In this document: positions 325-63,647 of the stretch, piece by piece
Layout of the letters: each line of letters begins with the position of its first letter
Numbering within the stretch: position 1 is the first letter of the stretch
From: Amphirosellinia nigrospora
Taxonomy: Eukaryota > Ascomycota > Sordariomycetes > Xylariales > Xylariaceae
NCBI GenBank assembly: GCA_004123355.1
Contig: SCHM01000002.1
Span: forward strand, 10,513,569 to 10,577,568
Length of the DNA stretch: 64,000 nt
Reading direction: 5' to 3'
Notes under the pieces: generated by a model
What the model saw: only the letters and a program-made list of their open reading frames with translations
Databases searched by the model: none
What the model was told of the DNA's origin: nothing
Made by a program: the position numbers and the translations under genes

Positions 325-1686
325 TTAATCCATGTGCGCATATTTGAACCAGTTCGGCCGGCAGTCTTCTTTATTCAACCACTTCTCGCCGTCTGTCAAC
401 CGCCCAGTCTCACAACCTCGGCATTTGGGTGAGTTGGGGCAGTTGAAGAATGGAATATGCTGGTACCCAATGTCTCGGAACCTGATTTACTCGTCAATCG
501 GTGCTCAGCTCTCGAATATTCGTCTCAACTTACCAGTGAATCTTATTCTTGTCTTCAAACAAACCTAGAGCAATACTATGTACTGGCGCGTCGCCCCAAC
601 GTTCGTAAAAGAAGCCACCGGCTCGATCGAGATGATTGAAGTAGTCTTCGTAAACCTGACTTCGCCAGAAACTCATATCGGCGATTTCAAAGTTTGTCCA
701 AAAGTGGCAGGTGGAGTACCCGTTGGCCATCTCATTATGAATAGGCCGACGTGTTCTGTCGGTCAGCCAGCCCTCTGCGCGGTTCGGATGGAGATAGTCG
801 GGATGCTCCGCAATAAACTTGGTTGTCTCAGGCCACAGGGATGGGATCGATTTTGGAGCATCATATAAGGTGATGGTGAACCCATAAGTTTTGTTGTGAT
901 CCTGCATGTAACGGAACATCGTAGTCGACATCACAAAAGAAGTGCACTTTGGGCTCAACTCGCCAATAGTACTGTATATCGGCCAGAGCAGGATGTTTGT
1001 AGAAGAGGCCACTATTCCATCGGCACATTTGGTGGTATGAGAGCATGCTCGCGTATTGGATGTCGTTCTCTTCGAGGATTTTGACGGATTCGGCGAACAA
1101 ATCATCGTTGATCCATGATGGCTTCTGCCAATGTTCTTTTGGAATCACCTCTGTCAAACTGCGTCAGTATTCAGCCCCTTTTCGCAGAGTTGTTGGCGTA
1201 CCATATCTACACTCCGCCTTTGTGGCAGCGCTCGTCTTGCGTTTAAATTCGGCGGTGAAGGGGACGTCATTGAAGAAAGTCCACGGATAGTTGAACTTGT
1301 GGTTCCATGTTCGCTCCAAATCCTCCATCGACTGCAGCATCCCCGCAAGCTCTTCGTTACGGACCAGGGCTAGTAGGGTCGCGGGGATTCGAGCGGTACC
1401 GGCTTTGCCCGGCGCATAGGCATCGGAGGCTCGTACTAGATTCCCTGGAGGCTCGCCCGTGGCTGTGTGGTTTGTCGGTCAGGGTGTCGATAGGACATAT
1501 ACAAAGCCTAGGATTACTCACGATCTAAGTTAGGATCCTCTCGATTGTGCCTTGGAAGTCGGCCTTGGTCTTGAGGCTTGTGAGGTCGTGGGCACCATCG
1601 CTCGGCCGGAATATGGTGTAGAAGCAAAAAAGGAGGACAAAGATGGCGGCAAGCGCTAAAGCGCGGACGGGCCTCGCTATGGCCAT
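325..1686 (-). CDS. KRE2: GT15 alpha-1,2-mannosyltransferase (KRE2/MNT1 type), frameshifted
   Basis: Golgi type II membrane enzyme of the Kre2/Mnt1/Ktr family (GT15), which uses GDP-mannose to extend O- and N-linked mannans. The start at 1686 gives a short cytoplasmic tail and a hydrophobic signal anchor (MAIARPVRALALAAIFVLLF). The family blocks follow: FNYPWTFFNDVPFTAEFKRK, SYHQMCRWNSGLFYKHPAL, VEPKVHFFCDVDYDV, GYSTCHFWTNFEIADM and GGFFYERWGDAPVHSI, then a Cys-containing tail ending FKYAHMD. Introns are inferred at 1463-1521, 1151-1201 (51 bp, phase 1) and 482-533. The frame changes near 1624, 1538 and 916; the first two fit single-base losses, the third fits loss of two T. Length (about 400 aa) is normal once these are allowed for. 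It is divergent from the GCP5-type gene. Family assignment is very secure; whether the gene is functional is not. Confidence 0.93.
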
Positions 1687-2396
1687 TGTAATGTACTATA
1701 ATCTCATACGCATGAATTCAGATATGTGGTTGAGAGGAAGACGGGCCGCCCAAAAAATCGAAATGGCAATCCGGGGATGTGATGCGAGCTGTAAAAGCAA
1801 AACTCTAAAAGATGGAGGTCGATAGGATTGGCAGCGGATGGACAAGTAGAGCCCGTACGTATCGCATAGACTAGAATGGGATAGGAAAGGTGGCAGATTC
1901 CAATGTGTACAGTTGAAATGAAGATGGAGCGTCTTGCGATCTAATCCCCAAGGCACTGAAAGATTGTCAATCAGGGATGCTCTCATCGCGCCCCGGAAAG
2001 GGGGGCTATGTACCACGTACGTAGCGCATGGTGTATCTGCATAGGCGTTTCGGGTAGGTAAGGTACCTATTACAAGCTGAAGTACTGCTAGAGGTATGCC
2101 TAAATAATCAGCATATACTTGGCCTATTATCTACACAGTATATTAAGTAAATTGCCCTATCTACTTAGATGCAGTGGCATGTTGCGCGCTAGCAAGACGC
2201 GCCCACATTGACGCGTATTTTCCCAAGCAATCAATCAATCAATTTACGCCCTGCAAGCAGTAGCACAGTGTATGAGTTGAGCGGACATTTCACCCCACCT
2301 ATTCAACAACTTGGAAGACTCAATATCGTAGATTCCTTTGACATCCTCGTCTAATTCCATCTTAGATTAGAATGGGCAAATAGGTAAGAGCAGAAA
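1687..2396. promoter_or_regulatory. Divergent intergenic region KRE2 / GCP5
   Basis: About 0.7 kb lies between two divergent start codons and should hold both promoters. It contains TAGGTAAGGTACC-like repeats near 2055 and CAATCAATCAAT near 2230. No supported coding content was seen. The regulatory role is inferred from position only. Confidence 0.5.
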
Positions 2397-5111
2397 ATGT
2401 CATTTTCTGCTCAACTAGGCAGCTTGACGGATGAGCTGATCGAGGTCATCGCTTCCACAACATCCCAAGTCAGTTTTACCCAACCTCTCCCAATTACCAA
2501 ATGCCAAAGACATCTCACTAAGGACATCAAGTGACCCCTAGACCAATCACGCTCGCTTTGACGCATTGAGAGAATCGAGTCTACGGAACCTCCGTCAACA
2601 TAGTTTTCTCCGAACCAACCAATTTGAAGTGTATTCCGCCCTCGACGGCTATGAGGAAAGATTTCGAGTTCTCAATCGCGATGGGCTAGCCGATGCATTG
2701 AGAGATCGCTTGGATGCTCTTGCACTATGCTCAAACAAATGGACGCCCGATGTACTTGATTTATTGCTAAAACTAGCGGATCAGCCGGTTCAAAAGTCGA
2801 ATCTTGATGACCTCTTACTATTGAGAAAACCAGACGAAGATTCGGAGCCAAGGCTAAAATGGAGCGATATCGCCAAGGAAGATGGATGGGATGAGGACGG
2901 CGAACTTTGGCGGAATACCGACTTTGGTGGATATGGCTCTGATGATGACTATGCTAATTATGAGACGGATGCGTCCGCAAGCTCGGAGCATACATCATCA
3001 TCTAGTATCGAAGCCCGTTATCGTAAGCGGCCCGCAGATTATATTGATTGCCTACAGAACCCGTTGAATCTCGACGAAATTCGCAAGAGTCAAGCCTGGA
3101 GACATCAAAGGCCGTGCGTAAATTCGACGGTCCAGTCTCAGGAGGTACCCATCACAGAAATCCAAGCAATTCGAGAAATACTTTTCATGCTAGGTGGTCT
3201 TGAGAGCGTATTATTCGATCGTCAAGGGAAGGTTTCATCCGATATTCAACTCACACATGCCTCTGGACAGATCTTCAGATCACTCCTCGTTTCTGCCAAT
3301 GATGCTGGACAGAGATTGTCCCTTTTACGCCAGTATGTTAAACAACAACAAGACATACCCCTTTTACAGGTTTTTCAAGCAGCTATACAGAGCCGCCTAG
3401 GATTATTTGACAACACACCATAGCCAGTATGCAAGCACATTATACAAGTACCAACCAGGATTTAGTTGCGAGCGTCATGAAGGTCTTGAATGACCTCGAC
3501 CCACATCTCTCTCCTTTGAAAACCCTTGCGGAAACTATAGAAAAACTAGAGAAGTCGAAGAACGCTCAGCCATTTCACTTTCTAGAGTTGCTATATGACT
3601 CTGCTCAGGCCCTACAGTTGGAAGGTGACGAGAGCGCTTACCGCTTCACCAGCCAACTCTTTTTCGAATGTTTCGCGGTATATCTCCAACCAATTCGTCG
3701 TTGGATGCAAAGTGGCGAGCTTATAGACAACGATAGAACCTTCTTCATTTCCCGCTCAACACTTGATGTCCCAAGGTCTCAAGTTTGGGCTAACCAATTC
3801 GACCTAAAAAGGACTCCTCAAGGGTCATTATTTGCACCTCGGTTTCTTCAACCAGCGGCGTCTAAAATATTCACGACTGGAAAGAGCATCGTAGTCCTTA
3901 AGCTGATGGGGAAGCAATGGCCAATACAAGAAGAACAAGAACATACTACCGAAGTAGACATGACTATGGTATCGGACCTCAAACCCTTCTCGGAGATATT
4001 CGAAGACATGTTTGATCAGTGGATGCAATGTAAGCATCATGCAGCTTCCGCAACCCTCAAACAAACGCTATTCCAGACCTACAATTTCTGGTCGGATTTG
4101 GACATAATCCAACACATCTATCTAATGATGGATGGGTCGCGTTCCGAGCAGTTCGCTAGTGCCGTGTTCAAAAACATCGATCTTTTCAATGTTGACTGGC
4201 ACAACCGGTTTAATCTTACTGAGATGGCTCGCGAGGCTTTTGACGGGCTCGTTGAATCATACCGCCTTAATGTCAGCACGGCAGAGAGTAATTCGGCTAG
4301 TGACATCAAGAATGTTCGACGCACTGTCCGAGAAGGGCTGCCATTGATTTGCATCACTTACCGGCTGCCTTGGCTGACACGTATTGTAATAACAGACGAG
4401 AGCCTAGACCATTACCAATTGGTTTTCACATTTCTTCTCCAACTGCGAAGGGCTAATAAAGTGCTAACTGGGCACCGTATCCTCTCGGATGGTTCATCTT
4501 ATACAATTGAACAAGAAATGTTCTACGGTCTACGTGCCAAACTACTCTGGTTCTGCAATACTCTTCAATCATACCTCAGCACTCTCGTGCTTGGCCCGCT
4601 AGTTGGGAACTTTCGAGAGAAGATGAGACAGGCAGAAGATATAGACCAGATGCTGACGTCACACTCTACCTTTACCAAACAATTGGTAGATGAGGCTTGT
4701 CTTGGAGGCAAACTAGACCCAATTCGCCAAGGTATCCTAGATATTTTTGATCTGGCCATTCGATTACGAGATGCTCGCCAAACTGAGTTAGGGGGAACAG
4801 CAAACGAATCGCAAGAACTGTCTCAACTGTCGGTCGTGTCTTCAGTTAGGGGGAAACGACCCAACCGATACATAGAGACCAGCGAGGAAGATGACGAAAC
4901 ATTTCTTGGCGAGCAAGATAAAGGCGTGACGGCGCAAGATACAAGCGCCACCTATGATCAAATACTAGGCGAAACCCGGTCCGCTCTCGATCGGCATTTG
5001 AAGTTCATCTGCGGCGGCTTGAGGGGTGTTGCGAGAGCTAGTAGTAGCGAAGCTGCGAGCAAGTGGGATATACTAGCAGAAATGCTTGAAGTAGGGATCC
5101 GAGGACTTTGA
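2397..5111 (+). CDS. Gamma-tubulin complex component, GCP5 type
   Basis: Spc97/Spc98-family protein of about 875 aa that would act in the gamma-tubulin ring complex at spindle pole bodies. Exon 1 (2397-2468) encodes MSFSAQLGSLTDELIEVIAS; a phase-0 intron spans 2469-2541; exon 2 opens TNHARFDALRESSLRNLRQH. The N-terminal third is acidic (residues about 95-170) with KEDGWDEDGELW. The GRIP-like half contains SQVWANQFDLKRTPQGSLFA, and the C-terminal half contains FNVDWHNRFNLTEMAREAF and RAKLLWFCNTLQSYL. The long insertion before the C-terminal domain fits fungal GCP5 better than GCP2 or GCP3. Near 3413-3419 an ACACAC tract shifts the frame, joining DNTP to IASMQAHY. GCP5 rather than GCP4 or GCP6 is my best call from overall pattern. 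Confidence 0.85.
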
Positions 5112-32952: not shown

Positions 32953-35900
32953 TCATGCCCACCTTGAAAAGTCGAGACTTTCGACTAGTGAGTCTGCCGC
33001 TGTAGGCGGCCCGACTTCTGTGTTGTCGGTAGTCGCACTCGAAAGCATTGATGAGCGGTGGGAGTTTTGCTCACTCGAATTGGTGAAGAATGTGACTACT
33101 GAAGACCGTCTAAGACCTATGCTGTCGCGGACTGTGCTCCCTTGCCTGGAGTCAGCCTGTAATCCAATACCCGAGACTACTGCATTGCCATGACTCTGGG
33201 CGGTGCCAGGGGCGAAGGCGTTGGTGGTCCATGTGTTGTTTTCGGTCCATATTTCTCACGCAACCGATTGATGTCCCTAAGCCGATTACCCCATGAAGAA
33301 ATATGTTCTCCGCCTTCGCGGTTGGCCCAAACATGGGAGAAAAAGGATGCATTCAATGCGAGAAGCCTGATGAAGTCTGGTAATGCCTTCAAGCTGACAA
33401 TTTTGGTCTCTGCGGCTGGCGATATCTCGGGAAAACCAGGCTTACTCATGACCTGAACTTTATAGAAGGAGTCCTCTAAGTCCTTCGGCGTCCTCTGCCT
33501 AGTAGCGACAAACGAAGCACGAGACTCCGGAGTGATCACGATATTGACGTAGTTAAACTCCGATGGAAATGTATCAAACTTAAAGGGAAGACCGGAGTCG
33601 TTGAAAATAACGTTGACGAAGTCGTTACCGATATGCCGCTTCTTTTGAGTACAGCGTGGGTCGCGCTCTAGATCAGTAGGCATCTGAGTTGTGACATGAA
33701 ATACAACTTCCGTGACACGGTCTCTCCAGCAGAACGTATACTCGCCATCCGTATCGTACTGCCTATCAAGACCTTGCAGATTAAAAGCCGCACCTTTTAT
33801 TTTCGTCAGCACCCCAAGGCCATTCAAGAATTCAACGTAATCGCCGCTGCCAGAGACGTTGGCTAGAATTTCAGCCTCGTCCACTTGATTTTCTCCGATA
33901 TAGACAACACCAACTTTGTGGCCATCCAAAGTAGAGTTGCGATCGAAGACCCTGATGGCCATGTCGACAGTTTCGTTGTTAGGTAGTGGGATTGGCTTGC
34001 TCATTTCATTGTATTGAGGCATCGAGGACAGTAACTGTACTAGTAGGTGGTTTGGTAGCACGAAGTTTGTGTCTCTAGTATTATCGTCATTTCTCATGGG
34101 TTGTTGATGTGCGGGGGGCGGGCGGAACGATTCGCAAATGGTGAATGACGAGGTACCTGAAGGTTGTCTTTTCGTGATCTGAGCCCAACCTGAAGTTACG
34201 GCCTGCTCCACAGTCACGATACTATTGCCAATCAACCATCTCTTCTTGAGAATCTCACCAAATCGGTCCGGGGTAAACAAAGGATCGGCAGCGGACTCAT
34301 CAACGTCAGCGTAAGTTACTCGCTGTATGAAATCGATTGACGTTTGGGCTTGTTCATCGAGAACTTGCGAGCCATCGACATCTGTAAAAAGATTCTTTGC
34401 AATCCAAGAAACGTGGCTTGCACGGTCTTCAAGCTTCAATGCTAGAAACCAAAATATGATGACATGATACGCTAATGTATAGACATATTGGGGGAGGTCC
34501 TCAGATGCATTGGGACGGGGAGAATTATCGACCGGGAGCGACGGTTTTCTGAACTGGGCCACGTCGCCAATGGAACTTGGCCGATAGCTTTGTTTCTTAC
34601 CCCTGACGAATTGGAGATAGCGAACACAAATGCCGAAAACGATTTGGTACTCCTCTTTGCGAAAGTTCTTATATAAGAATGGCAACCGACTAAGGCAGGC
34701 CAAGAACTCAAGAATATGCATTGCCACATAAGGTTGTGTGATAATTGTGGCCATGCGTTGTAATATAGGGATCAGAGCCTTGCCTGTAGAGGAGGGAAGC
34801 TCATGGCAACAGATTGTGAGCGCATGGATGCAGTATTTAGCGCTACGCTCCCATGTTGTTATAGCCTGGACAAAGGTCCAAACGATTTCATCTTCTTCTG
34901 ATTTTTGAAAGTGGCGATGGTAACTCAGTATCATTGTAAGAGTGTGGAGGAGACAGACTGCAATATCAGCTTTACGTAGCCCAGAAGCGCTGGGGGTTCC
35001 TGCAAGGTTCCCTGTCTGATTTGCTCACAAACAAGCCTCCGTAGCTCTTGTAACTGGGGTACGGCACTGTTGAAAACAGCATGGTTGGTTAATTGCGAAG
35101 GAAGATGGACGAGAATATAACTATAAATTTCCCAATCACAGCCAGTCTTCATCAGGTGTAAGATTGCCTCGAGCCATAGCCCTACGGGCAGTAGGGTCTC
35201 CTCCCCTTCCGATGTGCTAGTGTCGGAAATACGAGAGTAAAGCACGAGACTGGCGGTTGCAGATGGAGGTTCCGGCAATGCCTCCAGATCAGATGCAATC
35301 CACAGCAATTGGTTTGGGGCGTTTCCTGTTTTCGTTGCAGCGGCAGCTCGATATGAAGCAGTCCGTTCTGGCAACTGCGCCTGAGGAAACGATAGGCCCC
35401 GGGCAGACAGAGACGACGCACCTCCGGTCTCGGCTCTCAGTCTTGTTTGTTGTGACGCCTCTTCGGCCGATTTGCGCGCCATAGCGGCTTCGGTCCGGCA
35501 TAGTGTTGTAGCCAGACTGTTGGTATCCGTATGCGTGGTAATGAAGATTCGATTCGCCCAATCAGCCCTCACGCGAAATAGCAGCTTCATTGCAGTGAGG
35601 CGAGCATCTGTCTCATTGCTTAGCCTTGCTATTGAAACGAGAGTATTGAAGAGACGAATAGCTTTAGCAACATCCACGTTCATGACGCGAAGAAAAGTTT
35701 GAACGAAGCCCTTCGTAACGACATTTGCCGGAGTTTGGCCAGCCGGAAGCTTTGATGCCGAGTTGGACGCACTGGCGGGGTTTTGTGAGGGCGAAAGGAC
35801 GCCGGAACGTGATCGGTTAGTACCGCCGACGATACCGCCTAAGGTATCCGTGATATAACAGAACATAGGGAAGCTCATTGTAGTCGCAACGGACGCAGCG

Positions 35901-37755
35901 AATGACACGACCTCTTGCAGAACTAAAATATCCGTCTCCTCAGCTATTCCTGTCAGTAGGCGCTTTACGAGGTTGGGGACAAAGTCTGGCTCTACTCCGT
36001 CGTTGATGAGTTCCAGCATGCCAAAGGCCTCTGTGATCGCGTGTAAAGCCTTCAATCTCACATCTGTAGAACGTTTTCTGTTCTTGAAGAAAGCGTCCAA
36101 GACTGTATCTAAGTTCGCTTTCCATTGTGCATCGGAAGGAAAACAGCAATGGAACTCCCTGTAGTAATCCAAAACCAGTGCCGCCGCCGAGTCAGGGATT
36201 GCTTGGTGAACCTTGGTGAAGAATAAGATACAATCTTGTCTCTGAACCAAATGTCCTTGTTGGTTCCTGACAACTCTCTCAACTTGAGATACTAGTTTCA
36301 ATAGTTCTTTGATGATCAATGCTTCAGGATGATCACTGTCTTCTCGAGATGGCGGTGAAGTGATGTTCTGGCTAGATTTGGCAAGAGAAGTAATAGCGCC
36401 AGCAGAACAGGTTCTTGCAACATCAAAACCAACGTCCAGTCTTCATAAACAAGCGTGCTGTTGATATCCCCTGGTTATCGCAAAATAATGCATTCGCTAG
36501 TTTTAAGATATCTAGCGAGATTTTCGAAACTGGTACAGCCTCCATAACTCTGGACAAGCCGTTTACTAAAATAGCATAGGGAATAGGTGGGTAGCCCTTC
36601 TCGGGGTCCTTCGTTACAAGTCTTTGAAGAATCGAAAGGGCACCTCGGATGTGTCGTATATCGTATTTCTTATCTTCACGCGCCCCAGTATTGCTCAGAG
36701 CATTGAGCAGCACCCTAATTGTTGCTTGGCCGTTGTGGAGAGGCATAGGATGCTAATCGTATGCCATGCGTCTTTTTGAGCGTCCCGTACTAAACAATGA
36801 ATAGAGGAAAGAATCTCGACGCATGGCTTGAGCTTGTTCCCAGGGAGTACTCCAAAGGTGATGATAGCGTCTAGAATACCACTGCATGCTCGCATATCAT
36901 CAGCGTTACTAGTTAATGAGCATATTTCCAATAAGGTGTCCACCAGGGCTTCCGCCGCCCTATCGTCAGCAAGGACGTAATTGAATTTGATCACGTCTGC
37001 TACAAAGGCGAAGAGCTCTGCAAAATCTCTGTCTTCTTTGGTGACGATGGACTTGCTCTTTGAACGCTGGCCTTGCCTTTTTGCCATGACCTAGCAGCAC
37101 GTACTATTTCAAAACTCGAACGTAACCATGTCGACAGAAGTGGAAACATATCATAATCGAACCAGCAATGTGTCGGCCATTCTGAGCTAGATTGATGAGC
37201 GTGATGAGCTGATAGTGAAAATCATCCTGATTTTCAATTATACAAATCGCCTGAAAGTACTCTTTTCGCTCCAAATCGAGGAAGATGGATGCTTGACACA
37301 CTCGGCTAGGAGTTCCCAGCCGGCACCACGAGTGGCCCTAGGGTTCGTTGGCTCTATCAGATCCTTTGCGGACGCCAAATACTCAGCACTACGTATCCTT
37401 GATTAGTGTTGAAATCCTAAAATCGGGTGACGACTGAACATACTGGGTGGTGAGGATACTTGGCTATCATGGCACGGAGTGAGTTAGCAGCCGCCACTCG
37501 CTCGTTCATTGTTCCATCCTTGAGCTGATCGAATAAGGCGATAAGATCAGATGGCAAGGCATAACTAACGGGTATTGAGCTTAGGCGTTCAGTTATTTCG
37601 GCGTGGATGGCCTCGGCCCGGATGACTGAGCGCGGGATAGGTGAGGGCTTGGTCAACTTTGCAGCGCCGGCAAGGCCCTTGAAGACGCCGGCAAGACCCC
37701 CCACGGCCTTCGAGTCTTGCGACGGCGGCGCCCCATCTCCGGGAGACGGGGGCAT
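32953..37755 (-). CDS. TSC2: Tuberin (TSC2), RapGAP domain protein, frameshifted
   Basis: GTPase-activating subunit of the TSC complex, which inactivates Rheb and restrains TORC1. The N-terminus is MPPSPGDGAPPSQDSKAVGG then GGLAGVFKGLAGAAKL. The helical tuberin domain runs through DVIKFNYVLADDRAAEALVD, GYPPIPYAILVNGLSRVM and FPSDAQWKANLDTVLDAFFK. The RapGAP domain lies near the C-terminus (VGVVYIGENQVDEAEIL, KKRHIGNDFVNVIFNDSGLP, FPSEFNYVNIVITPESRASF), with the catalytic Asn in the HIGNDFVNVIF block. The tail ends SLVESLDFSRWA at 32953. Frame changes near 33189, 34972, 36425, 36469 and 36742 each fit one lost base. At least one intron lies at about 37300-37420. Predicted length is about 1500 aa, normal for fungal tuberin. 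It is divergent from CSE1. Confidence 0.94.
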
Positions 37756-39678
37756 TTCTCGTTCTAGAATAAAGCGCCCTTCGGTAGCCGACTAGTTAGG
37801 CGATACTATTCGATTCGACATGTCAGCTGTGAAGCCATAGCTGTAAAGGAACTGAGTAGGCAAGACACCGAGACCATGTACTAAGCTACGCGAAGGGGTG
37901 GGCTGTGAATGGGCTAAACTAGATGGACATGTACATGCTAGACAACATTAAACAAGCATTCAAAGCGACCGAATTGCACGCGCATCAAACACGCACCCGC
38001 AGCACAAGCACCACGAGAGTGGGAGTAAGTAACGGCAGCAGCAGAGAGAGGTAGAGGCATACGGGAATCACCAACCTATAGCTAAAGGAGATATCGCATG
38101 TGATCAAAAGCAAGTCAAAATGATCACCGAGCAACTACTCAAGCATTCGCAAGCTTATCAAGACTAAGAAGGGCGCAGTAGTGCTGGCTCTCTTCGACCA
38201 GCCTATATATGCGCCCGAATCGTGTCCGGGATATTGGTCCTCACCCTCCGCCTCTACTGGAGTAGATGTCTTGCAGCGCCCTCTTTCTCTTCTAGCCCTA
38301 GCTTCGACGTCTCCAAGTAATATATAATGGCGTATCCCGAGGTTCGCTTCGACGAAGAGATGGGTGAGTGTCGGAGGCGCACATTGGGAGACGGGCGCGG
38401 GGACGGAAGACGGTGGGCGGTGGGTGGTAGGCGGCGGCGGGGAGAGAGAGGGGGGAACGGCGGCGGCAAGGTAAAGGACGACGAGGATGTTGATATCTGT
38501 TGGTGGGCTCGTTTTGTAGCGTCACTGGCGGTGAGTAAGAAGTTGGGTGTCTGAGCGAGGCAACACAACAGCAGAAGGAACGATGTGAAGTTGAACTGAA
38601 TGCTGATCTAAGGTTAGTAGTCCCAGTCTACCCGCTGAAGAAACCGACCGGATGAGTCCGCATCTCCACCACCAGTTACCCTTTTGGTCCCCATGCAGCA
38701 CAACACCCATACGAATATCTACAGTAGACGCTGATCTACTGTAAGTACTTACTTAGTACTATGTTAACCTTGTCTAGTTTTTGTAGCTTGATTGAGTTCT
38801 GTTTCATACTCCACAACAGCTAGTAATCTCAACCCCCCAATAAAAAGTCAAGAATCTGAACTTGATAAAAAAAAAAATAGGCCTTGTGTAAGGTTATCTG
38901 AGCCGTCCTTAGCCGATCTCAAGCATAGATTGTGTACCTCTCATGAGGTACTGTACTACCTACCTACCTGGTAGTCCTAAGAAGTAGGTAGGCATATGCA
39001 AGGAGCAAACATAGCCTCGCTCAGAATAGAACTACATGTAACTACATATCCTTATGAGTATCCGAAGAAATAGCAAAACTTCGTAGACACGCCTAACTTT
39101 GTAGTCTTGAGCGAGGGTCTTAAACTAGGTACCTAGTTACCTATCTATATACCTAGTATTATCTAGTAGGTACCTAGGTTGTTTCTGTGTATTTCTATAG
39201 AGTGCGCTTTTCGGCTGCCTACATTTTTGGGCACAGGTTATCGCGGGTGTCTGCATACACACACTCACACACACATATATATACTAGATACCTACCGCAC
39301 AATAACCATGAATGACTACTTAAAAAGTACACGTATGGCCTGGCGCTTCAAATTCACCTCGTAGGTAGTGCATATACTACTTACATGTAGCTAATAGCTC
39401 TAAGCTTTGGCAGCCCTGCCCGTGCCCTCAATCCGTCAACAGCGGGGTTAGTGTACCTATCTAAGCTATCTAATCCACCATAGGACCCAGCCCAGTGTCT
39501 AGGGTAGCTAACTGGCGTTGCCCGGAAGCCTTCTGTCATGTCAATAAAAAGTTCAGAAGTTCAGCATCATTCCTCAAACAAAACATCTCCCAACTAGAAA
39601 CGACTACTCACCACTCCGCTTCCTCGTCCACCACCAACCCTGCGGCTGTTCTCATCGGCTCAGCACTAGGCAGTCAAC
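37756..39678. promoter_or_regulatory. Divergent spacer TSC2 / CSE1
   Basis: About 1.9 kb between divergent genes. It contains a G-rich/Pro-codon-like block at 38380-38470 that gives open frames on both strands without conserved content, many TAGGTACCTA-type motifs (38950-39180) and a CA/TA microsatellite at about 39256-39285. The GC-rich block probably belongs to a 5' UTR or promoter. Confidence 0.45.
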
Positions 39679-42600
39679 ATGGCTACCGACATTGGCCAGA
39701 TTGCCCAGCTACTGGACGCAACACTGGACCCTGTGAAGCACAAAAAAGGTACCAACAACGCGCAGCCTCCCTACCCCGCCATCGGCACCACCCGCCTCTC
39801 GTCTCCCTCGTCTCCCCCGCCGCCATGTCCTCCCTTTATACCCAATTCCTACTACTATCCTAGCTGTTGCTGACCCGAGCAACATACAGCCGAAAACCTG
39901 CTCAAGCAAGAGGAAAAGAAACCTCAATTCTCTCTGCAGCTTCTTAAAATCGTCGCCACCGAGTCCTTCGAACACAAGATCCGTCTCTCGGGCGCCCTCT
40001 GCTTCAAGAACTTCATCCGGCACAACTATGTGGTATGTCGACGGGACCACTCGTATTTTTACCCTGTGTGGCCTTGTGTATCCGCTAATTGGCTATCTTG
40101 CACAGGATGAGGACCGCAATTACAAGCTACCTCTCGACGAGGTCAACACATAAAACAGGAGCTTATTGGACTTATGATCTCATGCCCCGCCACCATTCAG
40201 ACACAGCTGGGAGAGGCCATCAGCATAATCGCCGACTCTGATTTTTGGGACAGATGGGACACCCTGGTTCAGGTACCGTAATCTTTCCCCAGCTGCATCA
40301 ACTCACTTCTCTAACGTATAGTGTCTTGGCAGGATCTCGTCTCTCGTTTTACGCCTGCTAACAGCAAGGTCAACAATGGAGTTTGGAGGTTGCGCATTCC
40401 ATATTTGTACGATGGCGGCCGTTATACCGGTCCGATGCCTTATACGCCGAGATCAACCACGTGCTAAACACCTTTGCCGTGCCGTTCCTCAATCTCCTTA
40501 GCGTGAGTCCTTGCTGGCTTGTTCACCCATGGTTGAGTGCTTGCATCTAATATGACGTAGGCGACCGACCAACAAATCGATGCGAACCAGAATAACAAGG
40601 ACGCACTCAAAGGGTATTTGATACTCTGAGCCTCTTGATCAAGGTTTTCTACGATTTGTCGTCCCAGGACATGCCGCCTCAGTTCGAGTCTAACCTAGAA
40701 CACATCTCGACACTTCTCCACAAGTACCTCGTCTACGAAAACCCGATACTGGCGACAGATGACGACTCGGAAGGGTATTATTGAGATTGTGAAGGCTGAC
40801 ATCTGCGAGGCCTTGCAGCTTTACGTGCAAAAGTATGACGATGATTTTGGTCCATACACCCAGGTTTTCATCTCCAAGGCCTGGAATTTACTCTCCAGCA
40901 CTGGGCCAGGACCAAGTATGACAACCTTGTTAGCAAAGCTCTCCACTTTTTAACAGCCATTGCCGGAACAACAAAGCACTCAGCAGCCTTCAACGACGAA
41001 AATGTGCTCAGTCAAGTTGTGGAGAAGGTGGTGCTCCCTAATGTCGCACTTCGAGAATCCGATATCGAACTATTCGAAGATGAACCCATCGAGTTCATCC
41101 GTCGTGACCTTGAAGGGTCGGACACAGATTCCCGAAGACGGGCTGCAACAGATTTCTTACGCCAACTTCAGGTCAGATTCGAACAATTGGTGACCTCTGT
41201 AACAGGCAGATATATCAACCACTACCTTGAGCAAGGCAAATCCAATTGGAAAGACAAAGACACTGCCATTTCGCTTTTCCTATCCATCGCAGCCAAAGGT
41301 GCCGTGACAGCGTCGCATGGTGTGAAGACGGTTAATGAACTGCTCAACGTTGTCGACTTCTTCCAGCAGCACGTTGCGAACGATTTGGTTGGTGATGCTG
41401 GCGTTGAACCCATCGCGAAAGTGGATGCTATCAAATATCTATACATGTTCCGAAGCCAGTTAACCAAAGAACAATGGCAGGCTGCTTTCCAGCCTCTCAT
41501 ACAGAACATGGGCTCTTCCGACTATGTCGTATACACGTACGCAGCTATTGCTGTCGAGAGGTTGCTGTACCTTACCGACAACACCGGTGCTCGTATTTTT
41601 GGAAGGGCCGACATAGAGCCTTTTGCGAAAGACCTACTGGACCACCTATTTAAGCTGGTTGAAAAGGAGAATTCGCCTGCGAAGATGCAAGAAAACGAAT
41701 TCCTGATGCGCTGTATCATGCGTGTTCTCATTGTCATGAACACGGGCATCCTGAGCTTCGATGATATGGTGCTTGATCACCTCGTATCAATTACTAATGC
41801 TATCAAGGCGAACCCGAGCAATCCTAGATTCTACTACTACCATTTTGAGGCGTTGGGTGCTGTCATTAGGTAATGTTTGAACGACCAACCTCAAGTATGT
41901 TTTATTTAGCTAACCTAAGTTAGCTGCGGCTCGCCTAATGGAACCTCGAAGCTAGAAGATCGCCTCTGGGAGCCTTTGAACTTGGTTATCACGGAAGAAG
42001 TGAACGGTGAGGATTGAGATCGAGATGGTCGCGTCATAGGATGCTAACAAGTCGGTAGAATTCATGCCCTACGTGTTCCAGCTTTTCGCCAAACTGTTAG
42101 AGTTGAATCCATCAGGAGCACTACCTAACCATTACCAGGCCCTCGTTCCCCTTTGATGTTACCCGCTACTTGGGAAACTAGGGGCAATGTGCCCGCGCTC
42201 ACTAGATTACTAATAGCGATAATACCTAGAGCTACACAGTACATCGTAGGGGAGAACCAAGTTCAACCTATTTTGGGCATATTCCAGGGCCTATTGGCAG
42301 GCAAGAAGACCGAGCCGAATGCATTTGATCTCTTAGAGGCCGTTGTTGCATCAATACCTCAGTAGGTTATGTCTCATCTGTTAATTCTTTATAGCAGCTA
42401 ATTTTTGTATAGACCGACGCTTGAGCCATATTTCAAGAGCATCCTGGAGCTTCTCTTCATAAAGCTACAAAATAAGCCATCAGACTCATTCAAACTACGG
42501 TTTGTGCGCTTCTATCACCTCATAGCAGCGAGACCAGAGTCTGGTCTTGGCGCAGATTTCTTCGTCAGTCAAGTTGATCTTGTGCAAAACAACCTGTTTA

Positions 42601-43034
42601 CACAAATCTATTTGACCATCATCTTACCAACATCGGGCCAACTTGTCCGCCCGGTAGACCGAAAGGCAGCCGTCATCTCATTCGCCAAGTCGATGGGAGA
42701 CAGCAGGGCTTTCGCTCAACGCTACGTCAAGGGCTGGCGGTTCACTTGCGAAGCTATGCTCAACATGCTCATGAATCCACCCAAGGTGACCATTGGCGCG
42801 GTGACGACGTTGTTAACGAAGCTGATGTCGACGACATCGGTTTCGGTCTAGGTTTCACGCCTCTCAACACATGTAAAAGGCGGCACGCGACGACTTCCCC
42901 GAGGTCCAGGATATACAGCCGTGGGTGCGCCAATACCTCATGGATGCTAACACCGACATAATGGCGCCATCGCAGGATATATGGATCGCCTGACGGATGA
43001 GGGAAAACAAGCTTTGGCCATGTATGTGTCTTAG
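39679..43034 (+). CDS. CSE1: Exportin-2 (CSE1/CAS), nine frameshifts
   Basis: HEAT-repeat karyopherin that recycles importin-alpha from the nucleus with Ran-GTP. It starts MATDIGQIAQLLDATLDPVK, then AENLLKQEEKKPQFSLQLLK; later blocks include GEAISIIADSDFWDRWDTLV, VVEKVVLPNVALRESDIELF, EPIEFIRRDLEGSDTDSRRR, SDYVVYTYAAIAVERLLYLT, NEFLMRCIMRVLIVMNTGIL and ADVDDIGFGLGFTPLNTCK; the end is ALAMYVS at 43034. Seven or so GT-AG introns fit (for example 39749-39891, about 40034-40106, 42008-42059). The frame breaks near 40150, 40384, 40614, 40772, 40912, 42150, 42799, 42878 and 42955, nearly all consistent with one missing base. The protein is essential in yeast and the sequence on both sides of each break remains conserved, so sequence error is more likely than decay. 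Confidence 0.95.
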
Positions 43035-43550: not shown

Positions 43551-44936
43551 CTATTTCGATATCTGTTTCAGCTTGGATCCTCTCGCCGTGCGCATAGGCG
43601 TGCCCTGTCCGAACGGCGTACGGGGCGTCACGCTCGCCGAGCTCCCGATCTTTCCCCACAGGCGCTGCGCAGCCGGCGTCAAGCCGCCGCCCGTCACGCG
43701 CGGGCTGCTCGGGAACTTGGGCACGGGGTCCTGTCGACCTTGCCCGTGGCGCCCAGCTTCGAAGAGGCGCGCTTCGACTCGGATATGCGATCCACCATGG
43801 AGTGGTGCAGCGCCTCGCGCCGGCTCTGCTGCTGGATCATGAACGGGTTCGGCGTCGCGTCCGGGCCCAGGTCGATCTTGATCTGTGGCGGCGGCGGCGG
43901 CGGCGCATGCTCGGGCTCCTCGTCGTCTACGAAGGCGTACCCGTTCACGCGCGGGGTCTCGCTGCCCGCGGCGGTGGAGGTGGCTTCGCTGTCGGGGCGC
44001 CTGCGGCCGGCGATGGCGTCCCTGATGGCGGAGAGCGAGGGCGAGGGCGGGATCGATTCTGCGTCGCTGATTTGCGGGACGGGGAGGCGCGTGTTCTGGT
44101 AGTTCACGGCCTTGGGCGGGGCGCGCGACGCCGCCTCGGCGACCTGGATCCGCGTCTCCATGTCGTCCTCGATGCCGTCGGGCGCGAACATGAGCGCGTT
44201 GTTGGGAGGAGCCTTCCAGGTGTCCGGCTGCGCGGGGCGGCTATCGTCGTCTTTGTCCTTGATGGCGAGCCTGTCCTTCTTGGCGAAGCCGTCGTCCTCC
44301 AGGCTCGTGCCGGATTCCAGCAGCCTCGCCTCGACCTGCCTCTGCGCCAGCTGCATCTTGGACGGCAGCTTGTTGCCCGCCCACAGCCACGCGTACTTCT
44401 CGGCGCGCTTCGAGTTCTGCTTGTCCAGCAGCCTGTAGAAGCTCTCGTTGTCCTCGCTCGTGTACTTGGACTGGAAGGCGCTGAGGCTCATGTCGGTGTC
44501 GATCTCGGGTTTATCGTCCTCGTTCTCACCGTCGTCGTCGTCGTCGTTGCCCGGGCGCGCGACTCTGCGGACACGGAGACGGGGTGTCGCCGACGAAGCC
44601 GCGGGGCGTCTGCGAGCCGGGCGCGAGCGACGTGCCCCGCCGCGCTCGCTTGCGGCGGCCCGGCGTCATCACATGCTGCAGACGTCGGCCGGCGCTCGAT
44701 ATCCACGCCGGGTCCTGCGAGTCGAGGGCGTCGAGGTACTCTTGCTGGGTCTCGCTCTCGAGGAGGCCCGGGAAGAAGTCCCGCGCGATGATGTGCGAGA
44801 GTGCGTCTGCGTAGCTGTCCTCATCTATGACTTTCTTGGGCCGTTTGATTCGTTTCGGAGGCGGGGGTGGGGGCATCAGCTCGAGGTCGTCCCGTTTGCG
44901 GACGAGGGCGGTGCTAGAGTTGGTGCCTGACTCCAT
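43551..44936 (-). CDS. Splicing factor ESS2 (DGCR14/Bis1 family)
   Basis: Nuclear protein of the Es2/DGCR14 family, associated with the catalytic spliceosome. It starts MESGTNSSTALVRKRDDLEL, has a PPPPPPKRIKRPKKVIDE linker, then the family core YADALSHIIARDFFPGLLES..QQEYLDALDS (residues about 40-75). It continues with DTDMSLSAFQSKYTSEDNES, RLLDKQNSKRAEKYAWLWAG, WKAPPNNALMFAPDG and NYQNTRLPVP, and ends in the conserved RVTGGGLTPAAQRLWGKIG and TPRTPFGQGTPMRTARGSKL. The coding strand is GC-rich, which makes long antisense open frames. Frame changes near 44582 and 43724 each fit one lost C in a C-run. Length after repair is about 460 aa, as expected. No intron is required. Confidence 0.93.
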
Positions 44937-45999
44937 GATTGATGGTAAGACGAGCGGACAGGGTCAGTGTGGTTTTCTTGTTGTAGAGTAAGAAGGCGAG
45001 CTGGATAGATGATGAACAGGGTGAACAATGGCGATACCTTAGTACCTGGAGCCAACAATCTTATCTTATCGATATGCCGGTACTTAATCAGCAGGTGTAC
45101 ATACCAGCGCCCATGTTCTATGTTCTATAGCTTTTACCTCGCCAGCCTAGGTAAATTAACTATGACCCCGTCCTTTGAGTCGTAATAAACTTCTTGATAT
45201 TTATTATACCAACAGTATCTTCTAAATCTTTCATTAAATGAAAATGGGTACAAGAACTGAAGAAGCCCATTTTATCATACCTCTTGCCCATACATAGTAA
45301 TGCTTGCTATTGGCTTCCCTTTTCGTACGGCTAAGTGTAAAGCTAGAGGATGACCTGCCCAAGATGCCACTCGTCATGGCCGAGCCGAAGGAATCGATCC
45401 AAGAGGTTTGTCTACGTTGCGCCTTACATCTTCAACCATTTCATCGTTATGACCTACCTTATCTAACTAAGTACTTACCTTACAAAGGTAGGTGACCACA
45501 CAGCAGCATCCTACTTCTGCCAGCACCCACTAGGTGCCTACCTTGAACTATAAAGTAGGTATATGAACGCAACACCATGTGAGCATAGAAGGCTATTACT
45601 GTGTCATGCCATTCACGATGGCAAGAAGCTTCCGTGACGAGTAAGATATAAATACATGTGCCTGAGAGCGTAGAGGCCTTAGATCAAACCACAACATTCA
45701 CCTCTTCAATCAATCAACCAAATATATTTCAACTCAGTATTTCGCTGTTACAGCGTACGTTCCCGGCAATGGCTGGCCGTAGAATAACGTTCTCGGAACA
45801 GGATAATGGAGGGCCCAGCAGAGCCTCTCACTCCCTCTGCATCACTGAGGCGTAGGCAAAGTTGGACTGACTCGATCCCCGAATACCGAGCCTTCTGGGG
45901 CCTAACCGCACAAAGGCTCACTCGCTTCTAGAGCGAAAGTCTGGCCGCAGAACACCAGCTCCTCCCCCTGAAACTTCTCCCACTCTCATCGAACCCATC
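44937..45999. promoter_or_regulatory. Spacer ESS2 / methyltransferase
   Basis: About 1 kb upstream of both genes, with TAGGTACCTA-type motifs near 45480-45560. The coding start of the methyltransferase gene is uncertain, so part of 45760-45999 may be its N-terminal exon. Confidence 0.4.
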
Positions 46000-47275: not shown

Positions 47276-48356
47276 GTGGGTCTGGCTCTTGATCTTCGGG
47301 TCCGCCGTGTAGCGGCCTCTAGTTTACGACGTATGGCTTCCATAGACTCCGTTCTTTTAGACCATTTCCCAGCTTCTGATCCTGTAATCCCCGAACGTCC
47401 AGTCTCCGGTCCATCGGTCTCTAGTTCACAGGCCTCCAGCAGTCTAATCTCCAGTTCGGCCTCTGATCAGCCGGCCTCTGGTTTACGACCCATGGCTTCT
47501 AATCCTTTAATCCCCGAACATCCAGTCTCCCGTTTCTCGGTCTCTAGTTCAGAGGCCGACAGCAGTCTAATCTCCAGTCCGGCCTCTGATCAGCCGGCCT
47601 CTGGTTTACGACCCATGGCTTCTAATCCTTTAATCCCCGAACATCCAGTCTCCCGTTTCTCGGTCTCTAGTTCAGAGGCCGATAGCAGTCTAATCTCCAG
47701 TCCGGCCTCTGATCAGCCGGCCTCTGATTCGCCGGTCTCTGAACCTCTGCTTTCAAACGGTCTGGATTCTAATCCGCCGGCCTCAGACCCTCCAGTCCCT
47801 GATCCCCGGTCCCTGATCCCCCGGTCCTTGATTCTCTCTGGCAATCCAGTTTCTGATCAACCAGCCTCCGATCCTCAGGTTTCTGCTCCTCCGGTTTCTG
47901 CTCCTCCGGTTTCTGCTCCTCCGGTCCCTGATTCTCTGGTTTCTGATAACCCAATCTCCGATCAACCGGTCTCTAATCAGCCGGTTTCCGTAGTCCAGTT
48001 TTAGATCAACCAGCCTCTGATCAACCGATTCCTGATGCTCTGGTCTCAAGCCCTCCAGTTTCTGATCCGCCGGTCTCTGACAGTCCAGTCTCCAAACCGG
48101 CTCCTGGTCAACCGGCTCCTGGTCAACCGGACTCTGGTCAACCAGCTTCTGGTCAACCGCTGTCTAATCCGCCGGTCTCTAACGAACCGGTCTCTGGCCC
48201 TCCGGGCTCTAAGGGCCTAGTCTCTTTCCTCCGCCTCCGGGTTCTGATCCTCCGGTCTCCGATCCACCGCCCTCTGACGGCCAGCAAGAGGGCTCACCTC
48301 GCGCAAAGAAGAGCAAGTATATAGTTCTTGCGCACACTGTTTTACCCGTTGCCTGA
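47276..48356 (+). CDS. Pentapeptide-repeat Ser/Pro-rich protein with 123-bp tandem repeats
   Basis: Long plus-strand frame of low complexity. An acidic stretch precedes it (EETDDEDDEDDE-like, 47220-47275), so the true start may lie upstream or at the Met at 47333. The first part contains a 41-aa unit (ASDQPASGLRPMASNP ... SSSEADSSLISSP) in two nearly perfect 123-bp copies (47457-47579 and 47580-47702) after a diverged copy. The second part is a pentapeptide array with the pattern (S/P)-(D/A/N/G)-(Q/P)-P-(V/A), for example SAPPVSAPPVSAPPV and GQPAPGQPDSGQPASGQP. Single-base shifts near 47989 and 48227 lead to SDPPVSDPPPSDGQQEGS and a basic tail RAKKSK before the stop at 48356. No signal peptide or known domain. 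It could be a cell-wall or disordered nuclear protein; function unknown. Confidence 0.6.
47333..47703. repeat. 123-bp tandem repeat inside coding sequence
   Basis: Two copies of a 123-base unit (47457-47579 and 47580-47702) differ at only one or two positions, and a third, diverged copy precedes them. 123 is a multiple of three, so copy-number changes keep the reading frame. Confidence 0.85.
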
Positions 48357-48534
48357 AATAAATCATTCTGAGTATATTACATCGATCACAGCGACATAGT
48401 CATAGCGAAGTATAGCAGATCTGACTTTTAGTAACCATCATTCATTCCCAGAACACTCTATAGGTAGTTTAGTTTCATTTAAACAAGCTTTGCCACTAAT
48501 CTATTCACATCGCAATATCTGACGCAAGTGCCTA

Positions 48535-58089: not shown

Positions 58090-60024
58090 ATGACTACCCG
58101 GAAAGTACGATACAAGAAACTTAACATCAAAACACCCCTCCTGTCCTCCGAGAGCACCAGATTGATGCCAACGAATACGAATCCCTCACAACCGAATCAC
58201 AAATAGCTACTGGCGTCGAACAAGCAGAAGAAAATGTCAGTATAAAACACATATCAATTGCCATGGCAGCCTAAGTCACGTGATGAGCATATCACGTGAC
58301 ATCCCGTTCATGTCTCTCAGTAGTAGTGTTCCGCCGAGACTCACGCACTTGCCTGCTAACATGACTTATGACAATAGGAATACCATCTTCAGGCCGCCCT
58401 CAAGGGCGTCGGCGCCAGTGTGGATAATGAGATTCCCGTCCCGCCGCCGCAGAAGAGTGTGGAAGTCGACTATGACGAATTATATCCCACACCCTATGTA
58501 GAGCCTCGCAATTACATCAAGTCTTCCGATACAGTCGAAGAGACACTGAAGGGAAGTCTTTATGATATGACGACTGAAGATGACGAATTTCTCACAAACC
58601 ACAATGCAAAGAGACCTACTCATGCTCACCTATCTGAAAATGATTTCGAGCGTATCATGGAGGTATTTGAAGACACAGCTGCTGAGAGTGCACCGTATGC
58701 CGAAGTCGATAACACCTCTATCCCATACGAGCTAATGTCGCCGGCGATCAATCACCACATTCGTGAAAAGGCCGTTCAGGCTCATGCTAAAATCATTTAT
58801 GAATATTGGAGGAATCGCCGACAGTCTGTTGGCAACAAATCACTCCATCCTTCACTCAAGTTCGAGACTCACCAAGAACATGATGATATGGATCCCTATG
58901 TCTGCTTCCGTAGACGTGAGGTTAGACAAACCCGAAAGACGAGGGCGCGGGACGTGCAGGTTGCCGATAAGCTCAAGAAGCTTCGTAGAGAACTAGAAGA
59001 CGGTCGTCAGCTTGTCGTCTTTTCTCACCGGCGAGAAGTCCTGAAGCGGGAGTTACTCAAGACAGACAAACTTGTTTATGAGCAACGTGCCAAGCTCAAG
59101 GAAACCAAGATTAAACTCAACATCAAAGCAGATGATGATGACTTGGTCAATACAAAGCCGCAGAAGCGCCCCAAGACAGAGCCTCAAACAACCGCCGCGT
59201 GCTGCTCCTCACAATCAACAACTCTCTGTCTCGCCAGTGTCGCCAGATGGCGGTCGATCCATGGAACCTGTCGAACTCACACTCCTTCGTGACAAGCAAG
59301 CTGAGAGACAACGCAGAGCTTCTCAATAATATGAGCTCAAGGTCCAGGAGCATCGCCGATGGAATTCCAACTATATCGACCTGACGGCCGACCCTCTGCC
59401 TCCCGTGAAGGAGGAACAGGAGCAAAATTTCCGTCCCGCCAAGACGACATATTTGATGACGCCCCCCGCCTCTGCATCTGACTCGATGGAGACTGATGAA
59501 ACACCGACAACCCCTGAGAAGTTGATTGCACCATTCGCTTCAAAGCCGCGTCGTCTGAAGACTCAGACGAGGAAAATATGCCTTCTTTCCGCCGTCGCGT
59601 CGGCCGGCTCGGTCGTTTTTTCATAGATCGTCGCCCTGGAAAGTCGCGGGTTGGGCTAAATAGTCCTACTCGGGAGCCTTCTTCCTTCCTAAGCGACCGT
59701 TGGAAGTATGATGATGACGATGATGATGATGAACCGTCCGTGTATAAGATCGATACCAATAGTTTGAGACAGATGAAATTTCGCTCAACTATTCCTCCTC
59801 CTCCTAGCCTTTTGAGGAGGCCTGGTATAGACATGACCCAACTTCAAGCTGCCAATCGACCAGCGTTGCCACAAGCGCAGGCACTAATGCAGGCAGCCCA
59901 GGTTCAGGCTCAAGCAAAAGCGCAGGCGCTAGCAGCTCACACGCAGGCCCAAGGCTCAGGCACACAAACATCTCCAGTTCCATCTGCAATGACTCAGCAG
60001 CCCTCACCTGTACAACCTCCATAG
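58090..60024 (+). CDS. EPL1: Enhancer of polycomb-like protein EPL1 (NuA4 subunit)
   Basis: Scaffold of the NuA4 histone acetyltransferase complex that holds Esa1, Yng2 and Eaf6 on chromatin. It starts MTTRKVRYKKLNIKT, then after repair PVLREHQIDANEYESLTTES. An intron follows with the donor at GTCAGT near 58235 and the acceptor at about 58377. The next exon gives EYHLQAALKGVGASVD, EIPVPPPQKSVEVDYDELYP and YDMTTEDDEFLTNHNA, then the basic helix REVRQTRKTRARDVQ and a C-terminal Gln/Ala-rich tail (QAQAKAQALAAHTQAQ) ending PVQPP. Frames change near 58134, 59185 and 59534, each fitting one base. An in-frame TAA at 59327-59329 after ERQRRASQ is different in kind. Length is about 620 aa. Confidence 0.92.
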
Positions 60025-62531
60025 ACAGCATCAGCTGTCCACCCAAGGGTGTTTGGAGATGAGTTCAATGTGAGGTACTGTTTGTTGGAGATGAGTTCCG
60101 TGAGAGGTGCTGTTTTTCCTCTTGTAACAACGACAATAGGGAGCCCAACTCCTCGTCGGTTCAAGTTTATGATTGATACCCAATTCCCATCAGTTAAGAG
60201 GGATGGACAAGGAAGAAGAAGCAACTGTATATACACTTCTTCACGTGTCCGCAAGGCGTAATCGGCAGCGGTGGCGTTGGTCGAGGCATATTCCCTGTAA
60301 ATATAGATAGTTTCGAAGACACGTGCATAGTCTGTGGAGTGTAAAGAGAAGGGGGATCACCACAGTGGTATCTGCCGAGGGTTTAAAATTAATTCAAAAA
60401 AATTAATAATTCCGATATTGATGACATGTTTGTTCAGGTCATATTGGGGTATTTCCTCCTGAATATGGCCGGTGTCGTGTATGCCGCTCTCCTAGAGGGG
60501 TGTTTTGTTTGTGTCTCGATTAGAGCTTTTTGGCCGCCGTTATAGTGTTGTCCAATTTAACTCAACTCTCCTGGAGACGAAAGAAAATGCTTTGGTCTGA
60601 CAAGCCTGGCATGATAATTATGCCTGTATGAGCTATTTTGTGCGGTAATAGCTGCAGTCATGAACAAGCGACAAGACGAGCGCCGCTAGCTATAGGAACA
60701 CCAATGATAGTGAGCGGGGTTGGGTATAACTTCTCGTATTTTGCCACCGCCATAGACCGAGAGGCGATCGCCTAGGACGTCTTAAAAAGCTTTGGCTATC
60801 CGGAGGAGGCACGTCTAGCGGCGTTGATTGCAGGATATCGTGCTGGCACCCGAATAATGGTTTTCCCAGAGTATGAGAGAAAAGTATCCTTCCTCTTATA
60901 ACCTCAGTCGCGGGCAAGTGACGTTCTTCCAGAGACAAAAAAAGCCGCCAGAATGCCCCATGCCGGCGCTCAACGAGAATGATAGAAGAGCGCACCCGGA
61001 TGGTGGGGGGCCTTGACTCATCGAGGGACATGATTTTCGAAGGAAACGAGGGGAAAAGAGGGATGGAAAAACTAGTTGCGTCTAGGCAAAAAGATGTCAG
61101 CGGACGTCGTCGAGGGCGAGAGGAGACGGTCGTGCGACCAACTCACTCATGGTGAGGTCAGACAAGGTGTCAGGTGCAGAAACATGCATCACCTCATGGA
61201 GATGAGAGCTTCGCGAGGGAAATACCAGCCGGCGAGGCGCCCGGATTTTAGATCCATGCTATAGAGCAGAGACGAGAGGAGCTTGGGCACAAGAATAGGG
61301 AAGAAAAAAAGAAGCGGAAGGGGCCACTTTGGTGTTGCGGTTTTCTTGCGAGAGGCCGGGCGGGTGGGCGTAGTAAGGTTAGCAGGTAGGGTCAGTAGGT
61401 CAAGAAGAATAATAGCCGTCGGCCAAGTTGTGGGACTCCCGGACTAGGAAGGCCGCCGCCTGCTTCTGGTACCTACCTTCGACCCTTCGACCATTACTGG
61501 ACTGGATTGTGGGCTAGCAGCGCCCGTCCCCGCCGCGCCCCACTCTTCCACACTTAACATAGAGTAGCATTCAGTCAGGTGGGAAATAACCGCATGCCTC
61601 TTGCGAAATCAAAATCATAAAAATGAGCTATAGTTATAATAACCATGAATATCTCTGTTCAAACTAGAGAGTTAACATGATTATCCCTTGACGCGAAATT
61701 TATTAAAACAAAAAAAACATCGCAACAAAGGGAGTTCGTGCTGTCTCGAGTTGAAATGTTTGCTCTTACAGCAGTTTCGGAATCTGCATCGCTAGCAAGG
61801 TAGGTTACAGGTGTTCAGCCTCACTTTTCGAGGACACACGTCCAATGATATTTTTCGAGGACACACGTCCAATGATATCACGCAGAATCCACATGACATC
61901 AACCCACGCCAAATACCATCCACGTTTTCTTTGGGCCTTGCTGCCCAAACACGTAAATGGTCGTGTGCTGGTGCCTCTGATACCATTGAAGGATATTTAG
62001 GTGTTGTCCAGTGTAGTTATTGTCCCGTTTATAAAACTTTTTTCAATTAAATACCTAGATACTAACGATGTAACATGTCCAAGCAAGGCATGTTCAAAAA
62101 CGGGACTGGGCGTACCTAGGTACCGGCGCCAATGAGACCTGGGTGGTGAGGTCGTTTTAACTGTACCGCGTTGGTGCATAATGTGCTTTGATGCAATGAA
62201 ATCCATAGGTACTCCGTACCTACCTCTTATATGGGGTAAGTACCTAGTCTGCGATGACAGCGGGAATGCGTTGGAATTGTTGACATGGATCAGCCCCACC
62301 CCACCATGAATTGCGCCATGAATGCGAATGCCCCTCATGAGCTTTCATTTCCAATATACGCGTCGAAAGTGATCTATTTGGATTCGCTATTGGGAAATGG
62401 AATAAGCGGAGAGTTTTACTTTCCGCCTTGTGTCTACTCAGCTCACAACCTCCATCCCCGGACCTGACCCTTCGTGGCATTGCATCGCATCGCATCGCAT
62501 TGCCTAAGCACACCAGCAGCAACCAAGCGCA
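60025..62531. other. Spacer EPL1 / KAE1, 2.5 kb
   Basis: No recognised gene. It holds an AT-rich island near 60385-60410, a perfect 27-bp tandem duplication at 61825-61878 and TAGGTACC-type motifs near 62105-62240. GCATCGCATCGCATCGCATT repeats lie just upstream of KAE1 at about 62480-62502. Confidence 0.5.
61825..61878. repeat. Perfect 27-bp tandem duplication
   Basis: The unit TTTTCGAGGACACACGTCCA (first 20 bases) plus ATGATAT occurs twice in a row without mismatch. Seen directly. Confidence 0.9.
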
Positions 62532-63647
62532 ATGGCGGCGCCGGTCGACAAAATACCCAGCGATGCGCTGATATCCCTCGGCTGCGAAGGCAGCGCGAAC
62601 AAGCTCGGGATCGGCATCATCGCGCACGACCCGACGACGGGGAAGTCGAGCATCCTCGCCAACATCCGGCACACCTTCGTGTCGCCGCCGGGGAGGGGTT
62701 CCTGCCCAAGGACACGGCCAAGCACCACCGGTCGTTCTTCGTGCGGGTGGCGCGGTCGGCCCTGCGCGCCGCGGGGTCGCGCCGTCGCGGCTGTCGTGCA
62801 TCTGCTACACCAAGGGGCCCGGCATGGGCGCGCCGCTGCAGAGCGTCGCCGTCGCGGCGCGCACCCTCTCGCTGCTCTGGGACCGGCCGCTCGTGGGCGT
62901 GAACCACTGCGTGGGCCACATCGAGATGGGCCGCGAGATCACGGGCGCCGGCAACCCCGTCGTGCTGTATGTGTCGGGCGGGAACACGCAGGTCATCGCC
63001 TACGCGGAGCGGCGGTACCGCATCTTTGGCGAGACGCTCGACATCGCCGTCGGCAACTGCCTCGACCGCTTCGCGCGCACGCTGGCCATCAGCAACGACC
63101 CGGCCCCGGGCTACAACATCGAGCAGCTGGCGAAGCAGGGCGCCGGCGCCGGCGTCCTCCTCGACCTGCCCTACGCCGTCAAGGCATGGACTGCAGCTTT
63201 AGCGGGATCCTGGCCGCAGCCGACATCCTGGCCGCGCAGATGCGGGAGCAGGACGCGCGGGAGGCGCGCGGGGAACCGGCGGTCGACGAGGCCGCGGGCG
63301 AGGTCAGGATCACGCCCGCGGCGCTCTGCTACAGTCTCCAGGAGACCGCGTACGCGATGCTAGTCGAGATCACGGAGCGCGCCATGGCGCACGTGGGTAG
63401 CACGGAGGTCCTCGTCGTCGGCGGCGTCGGCTGCAATGAGCGGCTGCAGGCCATGATGGGCCAAATGGCCGCCGAGCGCGGTGGCTCCGTTTACGCTACC
63501 GACGAACGTTTCTGCATCGACAACGGCATAATGATTGCGCACGCCGGCCTCCTGGCCTTCGAAACCGGCTTCCGCACCCCGCTTGCCGAGAGCACGTGTA
63601 CACAGCGCTTCCGGACCGACGAAGTCTACGTGAAATGGCGAGACTAG
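62532..63647 (+). CDS. KAE1: KAE1/OSGEP, tRNA N6-threonylcarbamoyladenosine synthase subunit
   Basis: Catalytic subunit of the KEOPS/EKC complex, which makes t6A37 in ANN-decoding tRNAs. It starts [20 protein letters not shown] with the ASKH nucleotide-binding fold. After repair it reads [33 protein letters not shown], the metal-binding HxxxH block [58 protein letters not shown] and [20 protein letters not shown], ending with [14 protein letters not shown] and [13 protein letters not shown]. Three one-G losses (about 62692, 62774 and 63184) shift the frame through all three phases and restore it, so the protein end is in the start frame. All metal ligands are visible. About 372 aa, close to the family norm. 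The local DNA is very GC-rich. Confidence 0.95.

Follow-up and report, generated by a model that had tools for sequence, protein, structure and literature searches.

The window, i.e. the whole stretch of 64,000 nucleotides that was analysed, lies on contig C4 (positions 10513569-10577568) of a fungal assembly that comprises 48.1 Mb in 11 contigs. Profile searches identify Pfam matches to GCP5-Mod21, Yju2, tuberin, Cse1, EPL1, Es2 and TsaD within it; an additional match to Mating_C (E 0.003) fell under its cut-off and was treated as chance. The accepted matches, taken with short introns of about 55 bases and with 5S genes dispersed over the genome, suggest that the source is a filamentous fungus. 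Tandem repeats are present at 47372-47726, where 123-base units (2.9 copies, 94% matches) lie in a repetitive, coding-like surrounding stretch, and at 61825-61878, where a 27-base unit is perfectly duplicated.

Frame breaks in conserved genes of the window

At the start of the window a KTR-type mannosyltransferase gene (Glyco_transf_15; 327..1740, minus strand) contains introns and, besides these, two breaks of the reading frame near 916 and 1541, both identified from Pfam matches and three-frame reading and both called by the strict coding-frame model described below. The GCP5/Mod21 gene (2397..5111, plus strand) shows a single break at 3403-3417, supported by reading and by Pfam pieces in two frames, without a strict-model call: GCP_N profile positions 1-84 are matched in 2542-3420 and 89-295 in 3411-5108, with the match resuming in the next frame, 14 bases on. 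In the TSC2/tuberin gene (33200..37790, minus strand) we located approximately six breaks, at about 37263, 37160, 37075, 36722 and 36432 by reading and at 34985-35003 from Pfam, which matches Tuberin profile positions 111-190 and then 199-321 in pieces 17 bases apart; a lenient model placed one call near 36437, and the strict model made none in this gene.

The CSE1 gene (39661..42900, plus strand) contains, between genuine introns, eight breaks (about 40150, 40380, 40617, 40779, 40910, 42150-42168, 42800 and 42880) identified from Pfam, a PDB match and three-frame reading; two received strict-model calls. The CAS_CSE1 profile is matched at positions 131-168 and then 163-435, the latter stretch itself crossing four stops, and the middle piece of the gene matches yeast Cse1 in the PDB with an E value of 1.2e-82. 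In Es2 (43551..44963, minus strand) one break of the minus-two/plus-one class, at 44550-44614, is evident from Pfam pieces that overlap in two frames (profile positions 1-105, then 83-396), with a strict-model call at 44595. Finally, the KAE1/TsaD-type gene (62532..63647, plus strand), in which no intron was seen, contains three breaks, at about 62695, 62720-62790 and about 63185, as judged from PDB alignment, reading and Pfam pieces in two frames that cover overlapping TsaD profile positions (45-173 and 165-263). The strict model called breaks here at 62726 and 63201, the former probably representing two neighbouring breaks merged into one.

Reading by eye in three frames, made in part against homologues, gave eight breaks in CSE1, three in KAE1, about six in TSC2, two in the KTR-type gene and one in GCP5. 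A single lost base is indicated at 17 of these 20; the other three, which fall singly in CSE1, TSC2 and the KTR-type gene, indicate two lost bases or one gained. With Es2 the total for these six genes is about 21 breaks. An earlier note reported about 35 breaks in at least 14 genes, a figure that the present count does not establish. The claim of the earlier note that conserved genes in this region carry breaks of single-base type stands where the Pfam pieces on either side of a break meet or overlap in different frames and leave no space for an intron, and needs qualifying to the extent that genuine introns share those genes.

Breaks and introns across the genome

To separate breaks from introns we considered adjacent profile pieces within one gene and, at each junction, obtained the number of extra bases by subtracting three times the gap in the profile from the gap in nucleotides. 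Among 15 junctions in CCT/Hsp60 genes, eight lie within 4 bases of zero, six at 52-68 and one at -31; protein kinases provide 38 junctions, nine within 2 bases of zero and 29 at 47 or more with none in between (+3 to +46), although at two of the nine, where 18 and 24 profile positions are unmatched between the pieces, more than one event is possible; and the ten HSP70 junctions divide into six within 4 bases of zero and four at 38 or more. Pooled, 23 of 63 junctions are of break type (-4 to +4 extra bases), 39 intron-like and one unclear, counts that are not rates per gene because the profile searches scored best candidates only. The frame is changed at every one of the 23 break-type junctions (15 in the minus-one class, eight in the minus-two/plus-one class), and these are spread over six contigs (C1, C4, C5, C6, C7 and C8).

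These measurements bear directly on the proposal that reading by eye mistook ordinary short introns for shifts of frame. The affected genes do contain true introns of about 50-70 bases (some 55 being typical at CCT/Hsp60 and kinase junctions), the intron-like junctions have at least 38 extra bases, and the lenient model accounts for many frame changes through introns. Against this, the 23 break-type junctions change frame with next to no additional sequence, and the kinase junctions leave the interval below intron length empty. The intron explanation is refuted for those 23 junctions and, as an account of the breaks in general, is exceedingly improbable, whilst for some breaks on the list in the earlier note it may still hold.

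For a blind estimate of break frequency we used a coding-frame model whose training data were the sequence itself, kept its introns strict and set a penalty of -9. In the window this strict model made 14 break calls over 17.9 kb of coding sequence (0.78/kb); 15 other loci (the GC-normal subset of 20 loci at round coordinates, five AT-rich ones being excluded) gave 27 over 52.6 kb (0.51/kb), and a 60 kb control of synthetic intact genes gave none. The breaks exceed what chance would produce, and the window differs little from the other loci. It recovered only about seven of the 21 eye-read breaks in the six genes and is thus insensitive, and actual break rates are therefore higher. An earlier, lenient intron-and-frameshift model (penalty -10; 19 breaks in 33.0 kb of coding sequence for the window, 48 in 86.4 kb for the 20 loci) had been replaced, its introns having soaked up frame changes. 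Long unbroken genes occur alongside broken ones, e.g. an open frame of 508 aa at locus L001.

The five excluded loci (10 kb each) are extremely AT-rich, with GC contents of 12.1% and 19.1% (L035 and L036, contig C4), 9.9% (L040, C5) and 11.2% and 5.6% (L043 and L044, C6), compared with 44.6-52.5% for the other fifteen; the values below 10% are in themselves remarkable. Their TpA/ApT and CpA+TpG indices are altered, as after repeat-induced point mutation.

Losses in tRNA genes and their sequence context

A tRNA family search, in which 63 of 1644 candidates were scored, listed 58 matches, five of them of 71 bases or fewer. Four of these five short copies (L049-L052) were read as sequence, their siblings being known as table rows only. 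Covariance alignment shows that a tRNA-Thr (L051) and a CAU-anticodon tRNA (L050; probably tRNA-Met, with no gene reported there by ARAGORN) each lack one position in the 3' acceptor strand; the two short tRNA-Ala copies (L049 and L052) are separated from one another by gaps alone, with zero substitutions. In comparison with the genome, tRNA-Ala has four copies of 72 bases that match at 99% and two that are shorter, the CAU tRNA shows the same numbers at the same length and identity, and tRNA-Thr has two full-length and two shorter copies. Six of 16 copies across the three families are accordingly short by one or two bases, a proportion that is not a rate because the families were picked for containing a short member. 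For five of the six, the listed identities and lengths allow missing bases only; the sixth matches at 96% identity. Excluded from the tRNA-Ala count was a split copy (G000:C4:8529808-8529912) made up of two matching pieces 34 bases apart, perhaps reflecting an intron or insertion. The genome also contains 33 dispersed matches to 5S rRNA, of 115-132 bases, a spread of lengths to which genuine variants and lost bases may both contribute.

The earlier note had attributed nearly all of the breaks to loss of one base from a short homopolymer. We could not substantiate this: around the 41 model-called breaks, whose positions are imprecise, runs within 8 bases average 2.98, versus 2.85 for coding positions drawn at random (P 0.21), and a window of 3 bases on the same comparison shows zero excess. 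Runs of four or more accompany 29% of these imprecisely placed breaks and 19% of random coding positions. A protein match cannot say which letter was lost. Of the four losses readable in the tRNAs, one sits in a dinucleotide repeat, another lies clear of any run, and two fall in a G run, placed there by sibling comparison in one case and by stem pairing in the other. Run-length profiles did not clearly show truncation, their one departure being that runs of five are scarcer than simple Markov statistics would predict. Near position 8889 of L043 there are 37 consecutive A, and further A/T runs of more than 20 bases are found in the AT-rich loci; since such runs persist there at lengths of up to 37, long runs have not been generally truncated. 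The absence of significant homopolymer enrichment at model-called breaks counts against consensus error, as does the survival of these runs, which does not resemble plain truncation of long homopolymers.

Origin of the frame breaks

The frame breaks most likely reflect sequencing or assembly error, because like losses recur elsewhere in the genome and in tRNA genes, and we regard it as nearly certain that they are errors in the consensus of an assembly that is highly contiguous but un- or under-corrected. Shown directly are the breaks themselves, their spread over six contigs, the bias towards the minus-one class, the presence of losses in tRNA genes and the absence of any other CSE1; small indels occur genome-wide regardless of the importance of the gene, and non-coding RNA genes are affected. 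On such a mechanism one base (mostly) or two (sometimes) would be dropped from the consensus, presumably during base-calling or assembly, at a genome-wide rate on the scale of one site in every kb; a loss within a protein gene would shift the reading frame, and one within a tRNA gene would shorten that copy by one or two bases. In the DNA of the organism itself the genes are very probably intact. In favouring error over decay the earlier note is thus upheld, by the distribution of breaks over contigs, by the lone CSE1 and by short tRNA copies that, in resolvable cases, differ from full-length siblings by missing bases alone.

The broken genes might instead be decaying pseudogenes, or the lineage one with fast indel mutation; genuine mutations commonly remove one or two bases. 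CSE1 and others among these genes are needed for life in yeast, where HSP70s and CCT subunits are likewise indispensable, and yet HSP70 and CCT genes are broken here too. A genome profile search matched CSE1 at one place and found no second copy, and for KAE1 it gave, besides the match in the window, one weaker match on contig C5, which we take for the mitochondrial, Qri7-type relative. Neither gene therefore has the intact copy elsewhere, or the dispensability, expected of a pseudogene. Protein similarity also remains high, as in the middle piece of CSE1, and the tRNA losses argue against decay as well, such that we consider this explanation highly improbable.

Alternatively the losses could be real in the DNA and bypassed on expression, whether ribosomes shift frame pervasively or RNA editing inserts the missing bases, either of which would suit a genome-wide pattern in which one class is favoured. 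Ribosomal frameshifting cannot repair tRNA genes; similar losses in these, rather than in translated genes only, exclude programmed translational frameshifting as a general cause. Editing, by contrast, could serve tRNAs too. Full-length tRNA siblings and long unbroken genes (L001) nevertheless coexist with broken ones, and inspection of the eye-read breaks by eye revealed no common context. Bypass of either kind is hardly credible, and we give scarcely any credence to the specific case in which bases truly absent from the DNA are restored by insertional editing of nuclear mRNAs and tRNAs, which would to our knowledge be the first of its kind. A consensus that is a mosaic of two collapsed nuclear haplotypes has a precedent, in that collapsed haplotypes are reported to yield apparent frameshifts in Trypanosoma (PMC8445201). 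Mosaicism should, however, add substitutions, whereas the tRNA-Ala copies that were read differ by gaps alone, and this origin is very unlikely.

Consensus error remains the preferred explanation, and the conclusion that the breaks are an artefact relevant to annotation, and not a biological feature, is well supported. Any gene count, orthology table or inferred gene loss based on this assembly would be in error; essential genes would appear split, truncated or absent, and automatic annotation may introduce spurious tiny introns. Comparison of the copies of one tRNA within an assembly offers a cheap, read-free check that distinguishes consensus loss from biology.

Similar patterns occur in known biological systems. 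Euplotes ciliates employ programmed +1 frameshifting tied to stop-codon context and, as here, many genes need a change of frame to be read; unlike Euplotes, the present breaks share no context that we noticed and extend to tRNA genes. In Physarum mitochondria, where insertional RNA editing operates, bases are missing from genes for mRNAs and for structural RNAs alike, which is also the case here; the losses in this assembly are instead distributed over large contigs rather than confined to a mitochondrial genome, and the same tRNAs have full-length copies. Closer parallels, which give consensus error a published precedent, are found among uncorrected nanopore assemblies of fungi. In a nanopore-only assembly of Drechmeria coniospora, fewer than 1/6 of 305 conserved genes were reportedly predicted at full length prior to polishing; errors there lay mostly in homopolymers, with insertions the commoner kind once polishing was done (PMC7500977). 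The present assembly differs from that account in that losses dominate and homopolymer enrichment is not significant, and resembles the pre-correction Drechmeria assembly in that small indels split conserved genes genome-wide (PMC7500977). Judged solely by the finished sequence, it likewise resembles low-coverage nanopore assemblies of filamentous ascomycetes, which are reported to contain gene-disrupting indels both in and out of homopolymers (PMC9453082).
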